Origin: Mycobacterium florentinum | GTDB taxonomy: Bacteria; Actinomycetota; Actinomycetes; Mycobacteriales; Mycobacteriaceae | Reading direction: 5' to 3' | Length of the DNA stretch: 64,000 nt | NCBI RefSeq assembly: GCF_010730355.1 | Contig: NZ_AP022576.1 | Span: forward strand, 4,402,001 to 4,466,000 | Part shown: positions 9,525-29,858 of the stretch, in pieces | Position numbering within the stretch: the first letter of the stretch is position 1 | Layout of the letters: each line of letters starts with the position of its first letter | The notes under the pieces: model-generated | What the model was told of the DNA's origin: nothing | Seen by the model: the letters and a program-made list of their open reading frames with translations, nothing else | Databases searched by the model: none | Position numbers and translations under genes: made by a program

Positions 9525-10793
9525 ATGTCGGCCAGCGCCGCAGGCCTCTGCGAATTCATCGACGCCTCCCCGTCCCCGTTCCATGTCTGCGCCACGGTGG
9601 CGGGGCGGCTCCGGGCCGCCGGCTACACCGAACTGCGCGAAGCCGAGCCCTGGCCCGGGGAACCGGGACGCTTCTTCACCGTCCGCGCCGGGTCACTGGT
9701 CGCCTGGAACACGACCGGCCCCGACGGCCCGTTCCGGATCGTCGGCGGGCACACCGACAGCCCTAACCTGCGGGTCAAGCAGCATCCGGACCGCGTGGTG
9801 GCGGGCTGGCAGGTGGTGGCGCTGGAGCCCTACGGCGGGGCGTGGCTCAACTCCTGGCTCGACCGCGATTTGGGCATCAGCGGGCGGCTGTCGGTGCGGG
9901 ACGGCTCCGGGCTGGACCATCGGCTGGTCCGGATCGACGATCCGATCCTGCGGGTGCCGCAGCTGGCCATTCACCTCGCCGAGGACCGCAAGTCGGTGAC
10001 GCTGGACCCGCAGCGGCACGTCAACGCGGTCTGGGGCTCGAATGCACAAGGCGACCCTGCGCGTGCATTCGTGGACTACGTGGCCGGCCGCGCCGGGGTG
10101 GCGCCGGCCGACGTGCTGGCCGCCGACCTGATGACGCACGACCTGACCCCGTCGACGGTGCTCGGCGCCGACGGCAGTCTGCTCAGCGCGCCCCGGCTGG
10201 ACAACCAGGCCAGTTGCTATGCGGGGCTGGAGGCATTGCTTGCGGCCGAACCGCGCGCCAAGGTGCCGGTGTTGGTGCTGTTCGACCACGAGGAGGTCGG
10301 CTCGTCGTCGGACCACGGGGCGCAGTCCAACCTGCTGAGCACCGTCCTGGAGCGCATCGTGCTGGCGGCCGGCGGCAACCGGGAAGACTTCCTGCGGCGG
10401 CTGCCGGCATCGCTACTGGCCTCGGCCGACATGGCGCACGCCACCCATCCGAACTACCCGGAGCGCCACGAGCCCGGCCACCTGATCGCGATCAACGCCG
10501 GGCCGGTACTCAAGGTGCACCCCAATTTGCGGTACGCCACCGACGGGCGTACGGCGGCGGCGTTCGCGCTGGCGTGCGAGCAGGCCGGGGTGGGACTGCA
10601 GCGCTACGAGCATCGCGCCGACCTGCCCTGCGGTTCCACAATCGGGCCGATGGCCTCGGCGCAAACCGGCATCCCCACCGTCGACGTCGGCGCCGCCCAG
10701 CTCGCGATGCACTCCGCGCGCGAAATGATGGGTGCGCACGATGTGGCCGCCTATTCCGCTGCGCTGCAAGCGTTTTTGTCGCCCGAGGCATAG
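9525..10793 (+). CDS. pepC: M18 family aminopeptidase
   Basis: The product is 422 residues. It is a metallo-aminopeptidase with [12 protein letters not shown] (first metal histidine and aspartate), [16 protein letters not shown] (catalytic glutamate pair) and [10 protein letters not shown] (last metal histidine). The ATG at 9525 starts [20 protein letters not shown], as in other mycobacteria; in-frame ATGs at 9513 and 9516 are also present. Transcription is divergent from the DyP gene with almost no intergenic DNA, so at least one mRNA is likely leaderless. Cytoplasmic peptide turnover. Confidence 0.95.
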
Positions 10794-10804
10794 GGTTTGG
10801 CGGT

Positions 10805-11152
10805 ATGGCGCTCCACGTGGAAATGGTCACGATCGATTGCAGCGATCCGGCGACGTTGGCCGGGTGGTGGGCGCGGCAATTCGGTGGCACGACGCATGAT
10901 CTGCTCGCCGACGAATTCACGGTGGTGACCTTGCCCGACGGGCTACAGCTCGGATTCCAGAAGGTGCCGGATCCCACTCCCGGGAAAAACCGCGTGCACC
11001 TGGATTTCGGTGCCCAGGACGTGGACGAAGAAGTGTCGCGGCTGACGGCCGCGGGAGCCACCGAAGTGGGTAGGCACAGCTTCGGGGACGATTTTCGCTG
11101 GGTGGTACTGGCCGATCCCGAGGGCAATGTGTTCTGCGTGACCCGTCAGTAA
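10805..11152 (+). CDS. VOC family protein (Rv0801-like)
   Basis: The product is 115 residues, a single VOC fold: MALHVEMVTIDCSDPATLAG at the start and VVLADPEGNVFCVTRQ at the end, including the terminal glutamate region. It starts 11 bp after pepC and is probably co-transcribed with it. Metal-dependent dioxygenase, isomerase or binding activities are all possible in this fold. Its stop overlaps the convergent TetR gene by 7 bp. Confidence 0.88.
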   Translation: MALHVEMVTIDCSDPATLAGWWARQFGGTTHDLLADEFTVVTLPDGLQLGFQKVPDPTPGKNRVHLDFGAQDVDEEVSRLTAAGATEVGRHSFGDDFRWVVLADPEGNVFCVTRQ

Positions 11153-11763
11153 CTCGCTACCCCGTCGAGCAGCGCGTCGACGAGCCCGTCGAATCCGGGG
11201 CCGGCGCTGCCGCTGGTGAGCGCGTGGAACAGCAGGGCGCCGACCAACGCGTGCGCGACGGCGTCGACGTCCGCCCCGGCCCGCAGCTCGCCGTCGTCGA
11301 CGGCCCGGCGGAGTCTGGTCGTCAACCCGGCCAGCTGCGGGGCGCTCAACTGCCGATAGAGATCCTCGCCGTCACCCGCGCGCGCGGCGGCCGCCGCCAC
11401 CAGAGCCCGCACCAACGCGGCGTTGGGCGGCTCGGCCAGAAAATCGGCGTGTTCGTTCAGCCAGCTGCGCAGGTCCGCGCGGATGTCGCCGGTCTGGGCG
11501 ACCGGGAACGACCCCGATCGTCCGTAGGCCTCCAGCACCGCTTCGGCGACCAACGGGGCCTTCGACGACCACCGCCGGTACAGGGTTTTCTTCCCCACCC
11601 CCGCGCGGGCGGCGACGCTTTCCATCGACAATTCGGCGTAACTGCCCGCCGTCAGCAGCTCGCGGGTGGCGTCCAGAATCGCGTGATCCAGCCGGGCGTC
11701 ACGCGGTCGGCCGATCCGTTCGTCGGGCACTGGCGGTTGACTGCCGGGTTGGGTTACCTTCAT
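11146..11763 (-). CDS. TetR family transcriptional regulator
   Basis: The product is 205 residues with a textbook TetR HTH (LDHAILDATRELLTAGSYAEL, then RAGVGKKTLYRRWSSK) and a C-terminal all-helical ligand domain. It is divergent from the phosphotransferase gene, and a strong inverted repeat lies 15 bp upstream of its ATG. Autorepression and control of the phosphotransferase are the simplest reading. The inducer is unknown. Confidence 0.9.
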   Translation of the reverse strand: MKVTQPGSQPPVPDERIGRPRDARLDHAILDATRELLTAGSYAELSMESVAARAGVGKKTLYRRWSSKAPLVAEAVLEAYGRSGSFPVAQTGDIRADLRSWLNEHADFLAEPPNAALVRALVAAAAARAGDGEDLYRQLSAPQLAGLTTRLRRAVDDGELRAGADVDAVAHALVGALLFHALTSGSAGPGFDGLVDALLDGVASY

Positions 11764-11777
11764 CGTGCACAGTTTAG

Positions 11778-11797
11778 GAAACGATACGTGTCGTTTC
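11778..11797. promoter_or_regulatory. inverted-repeat operator between TetR and phosphotransferase genes
   Basis: GAAACGATACGTGTCGTTTC has perfect 7-bp arms (GAAACGA/TCGTTTC) around a 6-bp centre. Location and form are typical of a TetR-dimer site controlling both divergent genes. Confidence 0.65.
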
Positions 11798-23779: not shown

Positions 23780-23899
23780 GTGCGCCGCTCCTCCTCATCG
23801 TTTCGCCCTGCATCGTCGACGGCGCGGGTCACACGTCAACTCTACGGACCGGCGTCCGCCCGGCTGCGCTTGTCGCCGCGGCGGCTAGGCTCTGTCGGC

Positions 23900-24790
23900 A
23901 TGGCAGCCCAGACGGGTGTGATCGTCACCCTCGACGGCGAAATACATCCGCCCGGCACCCCGCTCCTGCACGCCGACGACCTCGCGGCCGTCCGCGGTGA
24001 CGGTGCCTTCGAGACCCTGCTGGTCCGCGACGGCGGGGCCTGTCTGGTCGGGCCCCATTTGCAGCGCCTGACCCAGTCGGCCAAATTCCTGGATCTGCCC
24101 GAGCCGGACCTGCCGAATTGGCGGCGCGCGATCGACATCGCCACCCGGGAGTGGGTGGCCGGCTCGTCGGGCGAGGGCGCGTTGCGGTTGATCTACAGCC
24201 GGGGTCGCGAGAGCGGTTCGGAGCCCACCGCGTACGTGATGGTCACCGCCGTCCCGGAACGGGTGGAGGTCGTTCGCCGCAATGGGGTAGCGGCGATCAC
24301 GCTGGACCGGGGACTACCCGCGATCGGTGCCGGCGAGATGCCGTGGTTGTTGGCCGGCGCGAAAACCCTGTCGTACGCGGTGAATATGGCCGCGTTGCGG
24401 CACGCCTCCCGACACGGGGCCGGCGACGTGATTTTCGTCAGCTCGGACGGCTACATCCTGGAAGGGCCGCGTTCGACGGTCGTGATCGTCACGGATTCCC
24501 ATGCGGGCCCGGACAGTAACCTCTGCCTGCTGACGCCGCCGCCCTGGTATCCGATCTTGCGCGGCACCACGCAGCAGGCGCTGTTCGAGGTGGCGCGCAG
24601 CAAGGGCTACGACTGCGATTATCGCGCGCTGCGTATCGCGGATTTGCATGCCGCCCAAGGGATCTGGCTGGTATCCAGCATGACCCTGGCCGCGCGCGTG
24701 CATACCCTGGATGGTCGTTCGTTGGGTCGCTCACCGATGACCGAGGACTTCGCCCAACTGGTAGACGCGGCGATCGTCAGCGATCGCTGA
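23900..24790 (+). CDS. pabC: aminodeoxychorismate lyase-like PLP enzyme (Rv0812)
   Basis: The product is 296 residues, a class IV PLP aminotransferase fold. The PLP lysine is in LLAGAKTLSYAVNMAALRHA, and the DVIFVSSDGYILEGPRSTVV segment corresponds to the cofactor-phosphate region. Members are 4-amino-4-deoxychorismate lyases (folate synthesis) or D-amino acid / branched-chain transaminases. The neighbouring folate-binding gene favours PabC, but transaminase activity has been reported for this mycobacterial lineage. Confidence 0.85.
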   Translation: MAAQTGVIVTLDGEIHPPGTPLLHADDLAAVRGDGAFETLLVRDGGACLVGPHLQRLTQSAKFLDLPEPDLPNWRRAIDIATREWVAGSSGEGALRLIYSRGRESGSEPTAYVMVTAVPERVEVVRRNGVAAITLDRGLPAIGAGEMPWLLAGAKTLSYAVNMAALRHASRHGAGDVIFVSSDGYILEGPRSTVVIVTDSHAGPDSNLCLLTPPPWYPILRGTTQQALFEVARSKGYDCDYRALRIADLHAAQGIWLVSSMTLAARVHTLDGRSLGRSPMTEDFAQLVDAAIVSDR

Positions 24791-25033: not shown

Positions 25034-26542
25034 CTATTGATTGGATTTCGCGGCGATCTGCTCGGCGATCTTGCCCGCCTGGCCGGGTGCGGCATTCGGG
25101 CCGCACACCGTCACGTCGATGACCCTGGCGCCGTCGGCGTGCAGCACGTGGTGGCAGATTTTGCCGTTGTCTCCCCGGGTGCGCTGCTGGGCGATCTTCG
25201 GGACGGTGCCGGTCACGTCCGCGAAGGCCCAGTCAAAGCTGTTGCCGTTGAGCGTCTCGGTCACCGTCTTACCGGCACACGACTTCCACTTGTCCGCGGA
25301 CTCCTGAACGAAAGCGCTGGCCTTGTCGGGCGACGAGAATTCCGCGACCGTCTCGATGATCCGGTTCGGCGGGTCCTGCCCGGCGGTGTGCACGATGAGT
25401 CCGCCCACCGCACCGACGCCGGCGCCCTCATACGCCGCCGCCACGGCGGGTTCGTAGGTTCCCGCGCACGCCGGGTCGGTCAGGGTCCACTTGGGGTTTC
25501 GCAGCTGGCTGATCTTTTCGCCGGCCACCACGGTCGGGTCACCCACGATGGCGCCGACTTCGGGTGCACCGACCAAATAGGATTCCAGCTTGCTCGCGTT
25601 CGCCGACGGACCCGAATTCGGCGCCGTCGGAGCCGAATTCGAGTTCGACGCCCGGGGAGCCGGCTTGGTCTTGCCGCTCTGCGTGGTCATCACCACCACG
25701 ATCGCGATCGCGGCGATGACCGCGACTGCGGCACCGCCGATGATGAGCAGCCGCTTGTTCGATCCGCCGGTTGTCGTACCGCCGCTCGCCGCGGCCGGGG
25801 CGGTGGCCGCGGTCGCGGCGCTCGCTGCCGGCGCGGGGGCCGACGCGGCGGCCGGGGCCTTCGCGGCGCCGCCCGGCGAACCGTCCTTGGCCTCGATTTC
25901 GGCCAGCACATTGTCGATTTCGCTGCGGGTGCGGTATGTGACGTCGTGCCGCAGGCGCAACATGCGCAGCAGTTGCGCGATGTCGCCGCGGGCGCTGGGG
26001 TCATCGCCGTCCTCGTCGAGCCCGGACCGCAGCTCGACCAACAGCTGGAGCTGCTGCTGCGGGCTGAGCTCCTTTTCGGCCATCTGGTTGCCCAGCCGGG
26101 TGATGTATCCGAACGGCACCGGAGGCTCTTCGGGCAGCGGGTCGGGCAACGGCACGGGCTTGCTGCGCAGCGCGTGCACGGCGGTGACCAACTGGATGCC
26201 GGCATCGACCGTCGGCTCCCGGTAGTCGATGATCTGCAATGCGGCAAGGGGATTCACGCGCATGCTGTCGACTTCACCGATGCGCACGGGCAGGATCGGG
26301 CGGCCCAGGGCCTGGGCGTAGCGCAGCTCGGCCTGACTCGGCTTGGATTGCAGCCAGTTGCTGGACAGCGCGACGATGAACACCTCGCAGTCGCGGATCT
26401 GCTCGAGAATTTTGGCCCACCACGAGTCGCCGCCGCCGAGCTCCTGGTCGAACCACACCTGGTTCTGACCGCGCCGCAGCGCGGTGGTCAGCGCGTCGAC
26501 CGTCGACCGATCTTGGCTCGAGTAGCTGATGAACAAAGCCAT
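25034..26542 (-). CDS. membrane TIR-domain protein with PknH-like extracellular sensor domain
   Basis: The product is 502 residues; the ATG has AGGAG 6 bp upstream. Residues 1-125 are a TIR domain (FISYSSQD at the start). Glu72 in AELRYA lies where NADase TIRs keep their catalytic glutamate. Residues 145-215 are helical, 222-262 an Ala-rich linker, about 265-287 one transmembrane helix. Residues 300-502 resemble the sensor domain of mycobacterial PknH, with four cysteines able to form two disulfides. The topology is cytoplasmic TIR with an exported sensor. It follows the RyR-domain gene on the same strand. NAD-consuming signalling or defence is inferred. Confidence 0.85.
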   Translation of the reverse strand: MALFISYSSQDRSTVDALTTALRRGQNQVWFDQELGGGDSWWAKILEQIRDCEVFIVALSSNWLQSKPSQAELRYAQALGRPILPVRIGEVDSMRVNPLAALQIIDYREPTVDAGIQLVTAVHALRSKPVPLPDPLPEEPPVPFGYITRLGNQMAEKELSPQQQLQLLVELRSGLDEDGDDPSARGDIAQLLRMLRLRHDVTYRTRSEIDNVLAEIEAKDGSPGGAAKAPAAASAPAPAASAATAATAPAAASGGTTTGGSNKRLLIIGGAAVAVIAAIAIVVVMTTQSGKTKPAPRASNSNSAPTAPNSGPSANASKLESYLVGAPEVGAIVGDPTVVAGEKISQLRNPKWTLTDPACAGTYEPAVAAAYEGAGVGAVGGLIVHTAGQDPPNRIIETVAEFSSPDKASAFVQESADKWKSCAGKTVTETLNGNSFDWAFADVTGTVPKIAQQRTRGDNGKICHHVLHADGARVIDVTVCGPNAAPGQAGKIAEQIAAKSNQ

Positions 26543-26650
26543 CGCAGTCTCCTAGGGTGAAGCGAAGCGAACGAACTGGGGCGAACGCCTGCCTGCGCGA
26601 CCCATACGCACATGCGCCGATACCGTATCAGTGTTGGGCCGCTTCAGGAT

Positions 26651-26665
26651 GCGCAAATTTTGCGC
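26651..26665. promoter_or_regulatory. palindrome between RyR and TIR genes
   Basis: GCGCAAATTTTGCGC is a perfect 7-1-7 palindrome in the 151-bp gap, about 110 bp upstream of the TIR start. A second short palindrome, GATACCGTATC, lies at 26619-26629. Either could be an operator for an independent TIR promoter, or the first a weak terminator. Confidence 0.4.
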
Positions 26666-26693
26666 GTATTTCCGCGTCGACAATGCCGACCGG

Positions 26694-29069
26694 TTACCCG
26701 TGTCCGCCGTCCTGGGCATGGGCCTCTTCGGGCGGCCGGTATTCGACGTAGCGGCGCGCGAACTCGTCGCCGGGAACCGGCCACTGCTCACCGCCGGATC
26801 CCCGCACCACCCAGTCGCCCTCGGCGGCGTTCGTCGGCCCCTCCAGGGTATTGATGGTCTCGCCCGGATAGGCCGGGCGAGCTTGTACCCGCCCCTTGCG
26901 TTGCCAGCGCCCATCGCCCGCGGGCTCGTAGGTGTCCCGGAAGATGTCGTCGCGCACCGACCAGACCTTTCCGTCCTCGGAGATCGCCCAGTCGCCGGCA
27001 TCGGCGCGCATCGTGTGTCCCGAGTCCGACACCCATGTCCATGGCGTGCTGCGTTGTTCGGCGGTCACCGTCCCCACCCGGGTGAAGGACTGCCACAGCG
27101 GACGCGACCGGAAGCCCAGCTGGCGCAGGCTCCACAGCGTGCCCGCCAGACTGCGCACCGCCGCGTTGAGCAGATCCGGGTCGCTTTCGACCACCGACCA
27201 GTCGACGAGCTTGTTGTGGATCTTGCGCGAGTCGTCGCGCACAGAGCCGTATTTCCAGCCGTTGCGCCGGTAGTAGCGGCACCAGTCCTCGTGCTCTGCC
27301 TGGGCCATCTGCAGCGCGGAGTCGTGGTCGAAGCCCATCAGCGCAAGCTGTTCCAGCGGCGCCAACTCTCCCATCTCGCTGCCCGACAGCTGCTGTGGCG
27401 GGCTGCCCCAGGTGTTCCAGGTGTGGCCCGCGATCTGCTCGACCATCCACAACGCGTTGCGGACCTGGCGCCGGTTGGAGCCCCGGTAGAACTCGTCGAG
27501 CTCGGTCCACGGCACCGATGCGGGCCCCCGCGTCCAAGTTGGGTCGATCGTGGCGACGTAGCGCTCGTGGATCAGCCGCGCCGCGCGCTCCCACGCGTCC
27601 TGAACCTGACCCTCCTGGGTGTCGAGCACCAGCGAGTAGGACTGCAGTCGGCCGACGACCTGGATGGAGTCGTCGGTGAGGCTGGTGTTGAGGTCCGAGG
27701 CGTAGATCGGCATGTCGGGGAAGCGGGCGGCCAGCCTCGCCGCCGTTGTTCCGGCATGTGCATCGACGAAGATGACCGCGGCGGTGGCGGGGTCGACGTC
27801 GCCGATCAGCTTCAGCATGGTCGGTATCGTCGGGGCCTCGGCGACCGCGTCGATCGTCGGCCCCTCGGAGGCGAATCCGGCTTGCTGACGGTGGAACTCG
27901 TGGTCGCGCAAGTACTCCTCGGCGTCTCGTTCGACCAGGGTCAGCGCGGGCAGCTCGACCGCGCCGGGCGGAGTGTAGAAGTCGCGTTCCAGCGCGCGTT
28001 GGGTCAGGTCCGCACACAGTGCCAGCGTCAATTGTGAAGTGCCACAGACGAACACATGTTTGGTCCGCCCGGTCGCCATGATGCTGTTGAGCAGCCGGCC
28101 CGCGGTCACCTCGTATTTGCCGACTACGTCGGCCGCCCATCGGGTGTCGGATCCGCCGAACTGCTGGGCGCGCCACGCCTGGGCCAGCCAGGGATCGTCC
28201 ATCCGCACGATGAGCGGTAGCCGCCGTTTGTGCGCGATTTCGGCGAGCCGGCGACTGATCAGGTCCAGCCACATCAGGTTGAGCGCCGGGTCGGGTGCCA
28301 TCAGGTAGAGCCGAGAAAGGCGGCGCCACAGCCGAAGTGACACCCAGGTCGATGGGGTGTTGAAGTCCACCAGCACCACCCGGGCGCCCTGCCGGCGGGC
28401 CCGCTGCACGCGATCGTCGCTGGCGCCGGTGAGGACGACCAGGGTGCTGCGCCGGTCCAAGGTGCGCGACACGGCGCTCAGCATCGACTGGGTGTCGCCG
28501 TCGATACCGACGACGGCCGTGACGGATTCGGCCCAGTTGGCCCGCATCCGGTCCACCTGGGACCGGAAGACCCCGACCACGGCACCGCCCAATCCGGTGA
28601 AGATCGCCGACAGCGCGGCGATCCGGGCCAGTTCCAGGCCCACCGGTGTCGGGTTCGGGCAGGTCTTTCCGCCGACGGAGAAGTCGCCGGTGCCGCCCTT
28701 GACCAGGCTGGCCGTCGCCATCAGAGGAGTGAAGAACGCCGGATGGTTGGCGTCGTGACATCCCCAATAGGAGGTCAGCCCGAGAATCGCCGTCATCGGG
28801 ACCAGGGCTGCGATCAGGGTGAACGAAATACCCACCACCCGGTGGCTGCTGCCCGAGCGGAAGTTCAGCACGGACGCCCAGATGAGCACGGAGACAACGA
28901 CCAACAGCGTCGGCATCGATCCCGGCCGGCCGAACCAACTCAGCCAGGGTGGGTACGAGTCGTCGATGGAGGGACGCAGATCCAGCACGGCCAGGTAGCC
29001 GATCAACAGCACACCGACCGCGGTTACGGCCCAACGCAATATGGGCGAGGGTGTCCTCGGGGGACGCAT
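26694..29069 (-). CDS. membrane protein with channel-like N-terminus, TrkA-N/RCK domain and RyR domain
   Basis: The product is 791 residues from an ATG with GGGAG upstream. Helices lie near residues 10-30, 52-70, 78-100 and 148-168. A pore-like TASLVKGGTGD segment sits between the last two. Residues about 180-480 form two Rossmann-like TrkA-N halves (VVGIDGDTQSML, later HVFVCGTSQLTLALC). A RyR domain follows near 590-640 (AQAEHEDWCRYYRRNGWKYG), then a tail with repeated GDW elements. RyR domains occur in prokaryotic conflict and nucleotide-signalling systems. Ligand-gated ion flux is a reasonable inference; it is transcribed ahead of the TIR gene. Confidence 0.8.
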   Translation of the reverse strand: MRPPRTPSPILRWAVTAVGVLLIGYLAVLDLRPSIDDSYPPWLSWFGRPGSMPTLLVVVSVLIWASVLNFRSGSSHRVVGISFTLIAALVPMTAILGLTSYWGCHDANHPAFFTPLMATASLVKGGTGDFSVGGKTCPNPTPVGLELARIAALSAIFTGLGGAVVGVFRSQVDRMRANWAESVTAVVGIDGDTQSMLSAVSRTLDRRSTLVVLTGASDDRVQRARRQGARVVLVDFNTPSTWVSLRLWRRLSRLYLMAPDPALNLMWLDLISRRLAEIAHKRRLPLIVRMDDPWLAQAWRAQQFGGSDTRWAADVVGKYEVTAGRLLNSIMATGRTKHVFVCGTSQLTLALCADLTQRALERDFYTPPGAVELPALTLVERDAEEYLRDHEFHRQQAGFASEGPTIDAVAEAPTIPTMLKLIGDVDPATAAVIFVDAHAGTTAARLAARFPDMPIYASDLNTSLTDDSIQVVGRLQSYSLVLDTQEGQVQDAWERAARLIHERYVATIDPTWTRGPASVPWTELDEFYRGSNRRQVRNALWMVEQIAGHTWNTWGSPPQQLSGSEMGELAPLEQLALMGFDHDSALQMAQAEHEDWCRYYRRNGWKYGSVRDDSRKIHNKLVDWSVVESDPDLLNAAVRSLAGTLWSLRQLGFRSRPLWQSFTRVGTVTAEQRSTPWTWVSDSGHTMRADAGDWAISEDGKVWSVRDDIFRDTYEPAGDGRWQRKGRVQARPAYPGETINTLEGPTNAAEGDWVVRGSGGEQWPVPGDEFARRYVEYRPPEEAHAQDGGHG

Positions 29070-29192
29070 CCGCCGATCTCCCTTCGCGCGGCGGCACGGA
29101 CGTCGAACAGTACACGCAAAAGATCGGCCGAAGGCAATGGTTTGGTGCGAGCGCCCAAACACCTACGCGGGCAACAGCACCGGTCAGTACCG

Positions 29193-29858
29193 CTAGCCGA
29201 CGAATCGTGACAGCCGCGCCGACAGGTGCGGGACCAGTCCGCCGTCGGCGTCCACCCGCTCCTCGACGTAGGCGAGATCGCCGCCCTCGACGATGCCGTA
29301 GAGGCGCTTGGCACCGCCCACCAGAACGCCCGACCGGCTACGCGCCAGGGCATCGGTCACCAGCTCCCACGACGACTGGTTGCGCGGGCGCCCGTAGAAG
29401 AGTTCGACGTAGCCGGACGAGTGCGCGAGCAACAGCTCAATGGCCTGGGATTCGCTCGGGTCGTCGGGATCGAGGACAAAACGCCAGAAGCCGGTCTCGC
29501 GCAGCCCGGGCTCCTGGTAGTTGCCGTCGGTGTCGAGCCGCCAGGATCTGGCTTCCCAGTTCAGATAATCGCCGCCGTCGTGGGAGACGACGATCTGCTG
29601 GCCGAATCGGTAGTCGCCGTCGGGCCCGCGACCCTCGCCCTCGCCGCGCCACACGCCGACCAGCGGCAGCAAGGCCAGCAGCGCGTCGTTGAGGTTGGCG
29701 CCTTCGCGCAGGTTCGCGGTGTCGGCCGGGACCGGCAGGTCGTCGAAGGCGGGGATGTTGCGGGCCGCGGTCACCTTGGCGCGCTCGGCGGCGGCAGCAA
29801 CTGCGCGGTCGCCAGAAGCCGCAGAGCCGGCCGGCCCCTCAGGTTCCTCGTAAGTCAC
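29193..29858 (-). CDS. nitrobindin-type haem-binding beta-barrel protein (Rv0813c-like)
   Basis: The product is 221 residues from a GTG. The C-terminal 165 residues form a fatty-acid-binding-protein-like barrel with the family motif GVWRGEGEG. It contains a typical [13 protein letters not shown] segment and ends [11 protein letters not shown], where the haem histidine lies in nitrobindins. It is linked to nitric-oxide or peroxynitrite chemistry in the family. The start GTG overlaps the stop of the small membrane ORF upstream (GTGA), so translation is coupled. Confidence 0.92.

Follow-up and report, generated by a model that had tools for sequence, protein, structure and literature searches.

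A stretch of 64,000 nucleotides from Mycobacterium florentinum (contig NZ_AP022576.1, positions 4,402,001 to 4,466,000; hereafter the window) carries two adjacent genes, gene 1 and gene 2, that encode a TIR receptor and a membrane protein with a ryanodine-receptor (RyR) domain. We propose that they form a two-protein nucleotide-signalling module, in which the TIR protein would make an ADP-ribose-type messenger and the messenger would gate the RyR membrane protein, with defence as the preferred purpose; we regard this as moderately probable. The proposal builds on the anatomy of the two genes, the conservation of their pockets and of their linkage, and the fast evolution of the receptor's sensor.

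In the scheme that we favour, the gene 1 protein would hold its TIR domain in the cytosol and its PknH-type sensor outside the membrane. A signal from outside would engage the sensor and cause TIR domains to cluster, and the clustered domains would turn NAD+ into a messenger of the ADP-ribose type, most probably an isomer of cyclic ADP-ribose (cADPR). The RyR repeats of gene 2 may then bind the messenger and, through an RCK-like part, gate the four-helix membrane part, so that ion permeability would change and the cell would be halted. We infer the enzymatic product, ligand binding, gating and purpose from the features described below.

Anatomy of the TIR receptor and its RyR partner

A reading of the window made from its letters alone (the sequence-only reading) had described a two-gene, same-strand pair here. 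Both open reading frames (ORFs) are indeed present on the minus strand, gene 2 (26694-29069) preceding gene 1 (25034-26542) with 151 bp between them in the ORF list. The features of the pair are as follows.

25034..26542, minus strand: gene 1, 502 amino acids, TIR domain, linker, membrane helix and PknH_C receptor (ORF, Pfam, hydropathy)
26210..26533, minus strand: TIR_2 domain, gene 1 residues 4-111 (Pfam E 2.2e-21; Cat1 alignment)
25691..25747, minus strand: membrane helix, gene 1 residues 266-284 (Kyte-Doolittle mean 3.02)
25046..25597, minus strand: PknH_C-type sensor with four cysteines, gene 1 residues 316-499 (Pfam E 6.2e-39; PDB 4esq E 3.7e-30)
26694..29069, minus strand: gene 2, 791 amino acids, four-segment membrane protein with RCK-like, RyR and PGDYG parts (ORF, Pfam)
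28566..29033, minus strand: membrane part, gene 2 residues 13-168, with Cys104 and Cys137 around the loop before the last helix (hydropathy, alignment)
27660..28532, minus strand: degenerate TrkA-N/RCK-like region, about gene 2 residues 180-470 (homology to a TrkA_N protein)
27426..27617, minus strand: first, degenerate RyR repeat, gene 2 residues 485-548 (profile match to the first repeat of relatives)
27105..27314, minus strand: RyR domain, gene 2 residues 586-655, with H593, W596 and H618 (Pfam, PDB sequence matches, pocket count)
26706..27092, minus strand: PGDYG part, gene 2 residues 660-788 (Pfam, two stretches, the best at 744-788)

The TIR_2 domain of gene 1 scores 77 bits against a curated cut-off of 28. 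Its residues S6, D32, S66 and E72 align with S7, D33, S68 and E74 of Cat1, a NADase of solved structure, and are invariant in all 32 aligned gene 1 rows, which bears out the earlier placing of a glutamate at the NADase position. According to the Cat1 report, the NADase site is lined by S7, H8, N9, N10, D33, S68 and E74 of one TIR domain, and alanine mutants of N10, D33, S68 and E74, as well as of two residues from the other domain, were defective in causing growth arrest (PMC12162218). A NADase site around Glu72, as the sequence-only reading had it, is partly upheld, at the level of sequence, by this predicted pocket: four of the seven mapped Cat1 residues are kept and three differ. Searches with PADLOC and NCBIfam gave TIR-level matches for gene 1 and, beyond these, two to other residues (best 4e-8), and the Pfam scan of gene 1 (E<=10) brought up no protein kinase family.

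Hydropathy gives gene 1 one strong membrane segment. The outer part belongs to the PknH_C family and holds cysteines at 359, 422, 463 and 480, as expected from the PknH-like, four-cysteine sensor recognized before. This sensor evolves much faster than the TIR domain. Over 31 homologues, the TIR domain and the linker each have a median identity of 90% to the window protein, the sensor one of 52%; three rows that are 94-98% identical in the TIR domain are just 37-38% identical in the sensor. Nonsynonymous divergence (dN) in three pairwise comparisons amounted to 0.11, 0.19 and 0.33 for the sensor, against 0, 0.01 and 0.02 for the TIR domain. The ratio to synonymous divergence (dN/dS) of the sensor is near 0.22-0.27 in the same pairs; the sensor is therefore constrained, only less so than the TIR domain.

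The length of gene 2 is counted from the ATG at 29069; the ORF list starts it at a GTG at 29162 (822 amino acids). Its hydrophobic segments (residues 13-31, 52-70, 78-96 and 150-168) agree in number with the four membrane helices proposed earlier. The accompanying "pore-like" segment may be read from the hydrophobicity pattern and from two conserved cysteines, C104 (43/44 rows) and C137 (42/44), the loop between which precedes the last segment; its filter-like positions vary. The earlier assignment of TrkA-N domains fared similarly. The Pfam scan of the window's gene 2 protein returned no TrkA_N, and what stands is homology of residues 128-647 (23%, E 1e-12) to a 579-amino-acid protein with TrkA_N (7.6e-16) and RyR, encoded next to a gene 2 relative in another mycobacterium and matching KefC and TrkA-domain structures. 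The Rossmann glycines are degenerate in gene 2, and a comparison of its two RCK halves with each other found no significant similarity.

The RyR domain is recognized by Pfam (PF02026) at residues 586-628, with 34.4 bits against a cut-off of 27.4, in agreement with the sequence-only reading. A single profile comparison matched residues 485-548 to the region of the first RyR repeat in relatives (probability 99.1, E 1.3e-18), and H501, N532, R533 and R534 of this region are invariant in 44/44 rows. Pfam finds two RyR stretches in the relatives at loci L212 and L214 and one in those at L215 and L221, while repeat 1 compared with repeat 2 within the gene 2 family gave no significant similarity (P 0.06). 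We read gene 2 as having tandem RyR repeats, the first of them degenerate, on the strength of these relatives.

Residues H593, W596 and H618 share the spacing of the ligand residues H75, W78 and H100 of RyDEP. RyDEP is a phage PF02026 protein that hydrolyses 2'/3'cADPR; other phage homologues sequester these molecules, and among eight additional homologues six were binders of such signals and cleavage was seen with none (PMC13232231, a 2026 preprint in which the terms "bacterial RyR" and "TrkA" do not occur). The three pocket residues are kept in 43 (H), 44 (W) and 43 (H) of the 44 gene 2 rows. The position of RyDEP D117 holds D in 8 rows and N in 20, including the window's own, so the catalytic dyad H75/D117 is not conserved as such (H in 43/44, D in 8/44). 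Among 12 more distant rows the counts are H 10, W 12, H 10 and D 2, with the first listed RyR stretch taken for each relative, which is the first repeat in some two-repeat relatives. Because H, W and H are kept and the catalytic aspartate occurs in only 8/44 rows, the gene 2 RyR domain is predicted to bind without hydrolysing, and is likely a binder rather than a hydrolase. This would give the RyR domain a plausible job, binding the TIR product, which goes beyond what had been read from the pair before and is in keeping with the action of phage RyR proteins on 2'/3'cADPR.

The Pfam match to PGDYG at residues 744-788 had escaped the sequence-only reading. In some relatives the PGDYG part is a separate gene (loci L054, L079 and L055; places in genomes G081, G193, G243 and G262), placed immediately after the RyR gene or several kb away, past a TIR-WD40 and a patatin gene. 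Gene 2 matches no PADLOC family at E<=1 and no Thoeris NCBIfam model.

Linkage, spread and insertion site

The sequence-only reading had taken the two genes for a functional TIR and RyR module and staked this on their co-occurrence in other genomes, which a survey of the genus did not refute. Gene 2 was matched in 110 of 297 genomes, in a few of them by fragments. TIR_2 was matched in 105 of these 110, against 50 of the 187 genomes lacking gene 2 (Fisher P 1.4e-34, kinship ignored). Receptor-like TIR places, defined as the 90 best-scoring of the TIR search (down to E 2.3e-40), lie within 2.5 kb of gene 2 in 68 cases, the chance being about 0.001 per place; in 62 of the 68 the matched stretches of TIR and gene 2 are 82-258 bp apart.

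Five arrangements of TIR and RyR genes occur, including same-strand, divergent and convergent ones with two RyR families. A TIR tree requires 11 changes among the arrangements and "none", compared with a mean of 19.8 after shuffling; it is a quick tree of 42 of 80 TIR rows, with 12/39 inner branches starred, and it counts locus L123 as "none" though its RyR frame is merely cut. Considering the tree, the arrangements and the 68/90 linkage together, the linkage seems to be kept while gene order and RyR family change. A chance neighbourhood is ruled out by the same linkage and the several arrangements.

Among the 22 TIR places not beside gene 2, 19 were examined (two of genome G148 and one of G261 left out). 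A shorter, different RyR protein adjoins nine of the 19 (L233-L237, L239, L244-L246); Pfam identifies the one in L239 as TrkA_N plus RyR and the receptor of L233 as TIR_2 plus PknH_C. At L241 (4310-9286) a paralogue of gene 1 is flanked by two genes that resemble Ser/Thr kinases, as judged by their start, one of them with a PknH_C match.

The class of TIR-RyR partners is broader than the pair in the window and includes a second RyR family and TIR-WD40 proteins. TIR domains were found in the fetched stretch of 33 of 40 diverse RyR loci (E<1e-4, several weak) and in 71 of 80 named RyR loci, nine of the latter lacking one; both counts use a second TIR profile, from which a non-TIR seed of the first had been removed. 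The seven diverse loci without TIR are L053, L067, L068, L072, L074, L080 and L081, and L053 has a TIR close by, immediately beyond the stretch. Of the 40 diverse loci, 22 include a member of a single WD40-rich cluster and nine a patatin-like gene; neighbouring genes were picked mechanically, and some picks overlap true genes on the other strand. Of this cluster's members, the three long ones scanned have nSTAND1 and WD40 by Pfam, and two of about 980 amino acids have TIR_2 and WD40; Pfam also confirms patatin in L070, a TIR-NHL protein in L066 and a TIR-DeoRC protein in L048. The L066 protein (10030-11787) has NHL repeats in its outer part, which presumably resembles that of PknD, and thus represents another kinase-type sensor joined to a TIR domain.

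Further variants occur at other loci. Outside the genus, in an actinomycete from its order, L182 (1474-3229) has a 100-amino-acid RyR gene that keeps all four RyDEP residues and overlaps a TIR gene at the latter's 3' end; this TIR_2 partner has a sub-threshold PNP_UDP_1 match. A 37% relative of gene 2 is found on a plasmid of Rhodococcus qingshengii, close to TIR, WD40 and DUF4062 genes. In L067 and L081, gene 2-type and TrkA_N-type RyR membrane proteins are encoded on the same strand of one locus, with no TIR in the stretch. A caspase plus alpha-amylase protein adjoins a TrkA_N-RyR gene in L216 (5045-7666, Pfam) and in L214 (by eye).

The pair lies between two genes that stand close together in most of the comparison loci.

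23894..24790, plus strand: one flank of the insertion site, which we take to be pabC by synteny (ORF list, locus comparison)
29193..29858, minus strand: nitrobindin-like gene, the other flank, named in the sequence-only reading (ORF list, locus comparison)

The sequence-only reading had pabC and nitrobindin as neighbours in M. tuberculosis. In a comparison across the genus, eight of ten loci whose genomes lack gene 2 at this site have pabC within 1.5 kb of the nitrobindin gene. In the window's own locus, the eleventh compared, pabC is not within that distance, as expected. The pair thus fills a site that other mycobacteria leave empty. In 53 genomes comparable for both places, gene 2 adjoins nitrobindin in 30 and lies elsewhere in 23; genome G010 was scored as "elsewhere" since its gene 2 is split over contigs, and with its other fragment (C182) beside nitrobindin, 31 against 22 is the fairer count. 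Among named organisms, Mycobacterium triplex has the nearest relative of gene 2 (98% identical).

The 6.22 Mb genome of the window has one TIR_2 match in all, namely gene 1. Outside the window it holds a second, broken RyR plus PGDYG stretch related to gene 2 and containing stops (G000:C1:853536-854167; L252). Short stop-bearing remnants of both genes are found in genomes G075 and G115, those of G115 beside the nitrobindin gene. Carriage as phage or prophage cargo was rejected, as no relative of either protein was found in viral contigs. Phage records match gene 2 at its PGDYG end only, through proteins in three records (MN096370.1, MZ501057.1 and MZ501068.1; about 53% over 36-38 residues, E about 0.006), and one plasmid record carries a gene 2 relative.

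Purpose of the pair and rival explanations

Several observations weigh against the proposed module. In the TIR domain, Y7, S8 and S9 replace Cat1 H8, N9 and N10, positions that are mostly Y, S and S across the aligned gene 1 rows; in the Cat1 report, the N10 alanine mutant is among those that were defective (PMC12162218). The K+ selectivity-filter signature is not kept in gene 2, where the window has LVKGGTGD and the family is variable. The aligned rows of both genes include close relatives, so residue counts are not independent. No RyR was found in the stretch around nine of the 19 other TIR places (L240-L243, L247-L251); at the pabC site, L238 has a TIR gene without a partner and genome G237 has gene 2 by itself. 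Outside the genus, in an order-level sample of 249 genomes, 13 matches cover only a small part of gene 2, 12 of them the RyR stretch and one a piece in the first third of the protein. Profile searches (E<1e-4) found TIR in three of 19 RyR loci outside the genus (L215, L226 and, weakly, L223); L218 is TIR-like by eye, and TIR was also found in L229, the sole mycobacterial locus of L212-L231. TIR-RyR linkage as a general actinobacterial rule is not supported by these loci.

Defence is favoured as the purpose because of the patchy distribution, the divergence of the sensor, the exchange with STAND and patatin genes, and the use of RyR proteins by phages. Proteins of the nSTAND-WD40 and patatin kinds are parts known from defence systems. 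The same TIR-to-RyR signalling could serve envelope stress or ion homeostasis instead, with a PknH-like receptor bearing a TIR domain in the kinase's place. We consider this unlikely, but a serious rival because of the kinase-type sensor and the housekeeping site: the sensor belongs to the kinase-sensor family PknH_C, the gene 1 paralogue of L241 lies between two kinase-like genes, one with a PknH_C match, and the pair stands between housekeeping genes, with gene 2 beside nitrobindin in 30/53 genomes. Such a role is harder to reconcile with presence in 110/297 genomes only, with a sensor that outpaces the TIR domain though still constrained (dN/dS about 0.22-0.27), and with the TIR-nSTAND-WD40 and patatin genes of other RyR loci.

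Other rivals alter the chemistry of the proposed module rather than its purpose. The TIR domain might merely deplete NAD+, and gene 2 might use its RCK-like part to detect falling NAD(H) or ATP/ADP and alter ion flux. The partly kept NADase residues are compatible with this, as is the gating of channels by ADP/ATP in TrkA-type RCK proteins, described in PMC6987127, but gene 2 has kept the RyR pocket and not the Rossmann glycines, and we hold depletion to be distinctly improbable. A shade less probable again is an off-switch, in which the TIR product is degraded or captured by the RyR domain in the manner of the phage proteins, RyDEP hydrolysing 2'/3'cADPR and other homologues sequestering them (PMC13232231); the catalytic position holds D in only 8/44 rows and N in the window, a four-helix channel-like protein would be an odd sponge, and TIR places with no nearby RyR make a strict antidote less likely. 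We give equally little credence to a non-enzymatic TIR domain that would draw in gene 2 through direct contact between the proteins. A scaffold function is described for some TIR domains (PMC8494770), and three Cat1 pocket residues are not kept; against this, S6, D32, S66 and E72 are invariant in 32/32 rows, and quite different TIR proteins stand beside RyR, which is easier to explain by a shared small molecule than by a shared contact.

Signalling by a TIR-made messenger thus remains our preferred interpretation, and the sequence-only reading as a whole is partly supported. More tentatively, and with rather more doubt than confidence, the pair may be viewed as the counterpart of two animal schemes at once, a Toll-like TIR receptor that makes a cyclic ADP-ribose messenger and a channel gated via ryanodine-receptor repeats. 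If true, RyR repeats would be an ancient cADPR-family receptor for ion channels, mycobacterial TIR/RyR modules would form a distinct nucleotide-gated immune class, and there would be a hint as to why one mycobacteriophage encodes a RyR protein that breaks down messengers of this kind. In gene 1, a TIR receptor combined with a rapidly changing outer domain, we see the pattern that immune receptors are expected to show. Bacterial RyR domains gain a concrete candidate ligand and partner, and a ligand-gated effector is predicted for mycobacterial TIR proteins. The pair also offers a small system for a question left by PMC13232231, namely whether the RyR repeats of channels respond to cADPR-type signals; according to the same source, no tools exist to characterise Thoeris easily in mycobacteria.

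Our literature searches, which did not cover the 2015 work of Burroughs et al., found no report of TIR-RyR pairs in bacteria. That work reportedly placed prokaryotic RyR domains in nucleotide-centred conflict systems.

Comparison with known systems

In Thoeris, a TIR protein makes cADPR isomers and an effector binds them (PMC13232231). The pair resembles Thoeris in having a TIR domain with NADase-site residues beside a putative nucleotide-binding effector, and its TIR gene is linked to the candidate effector gene in 68/90 places. It differs in that its TIR domain sits on a membrane receptor with an outer sensor, and in that the effector is an RyR/RCK-like membrane protein which has no PADLOC match and falls outside the described Thoeris effector families. 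With the phage RyDEP family, gene 2 shares PF02026 and the ligand residues H, W and H at the same spacing; unlike RyDEP, its RyR domain is part of a large bacterial membrane protein, mostly lacks the catalytic aspartate, and is encoded beside a TIR gene rather than by a phage.

The animal ryanodine receptors are calcium-release channels in which the RyR domain serves to bind adenine nucleotides. Like these receptors with their R12 repeats, gene 2 combines RyR repeats with a channel-like membrane protein, and it has PDB sequence matches to RyR1-3. Its pore part is, however, unrelated to theirs by the searches run, it is about 790 rather than about 5000 amino acids long, and its first repeat is degenerate. 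The likeness to RCK/TrkA-N channels, such as KefC and the TrkA-domain proteins, comes through relatives of gene 2 that carry TrkA_N and match their structures, whereas gene 2 itself has no detectable TrkA_N, Rossmann glycines or K+-filter signature. Finally, gene 1 has an outer sensor of the same family as that of the receptor kinase PknH (4esq, E 3.7e-30), with a TIR domain instead of the kinase domain.

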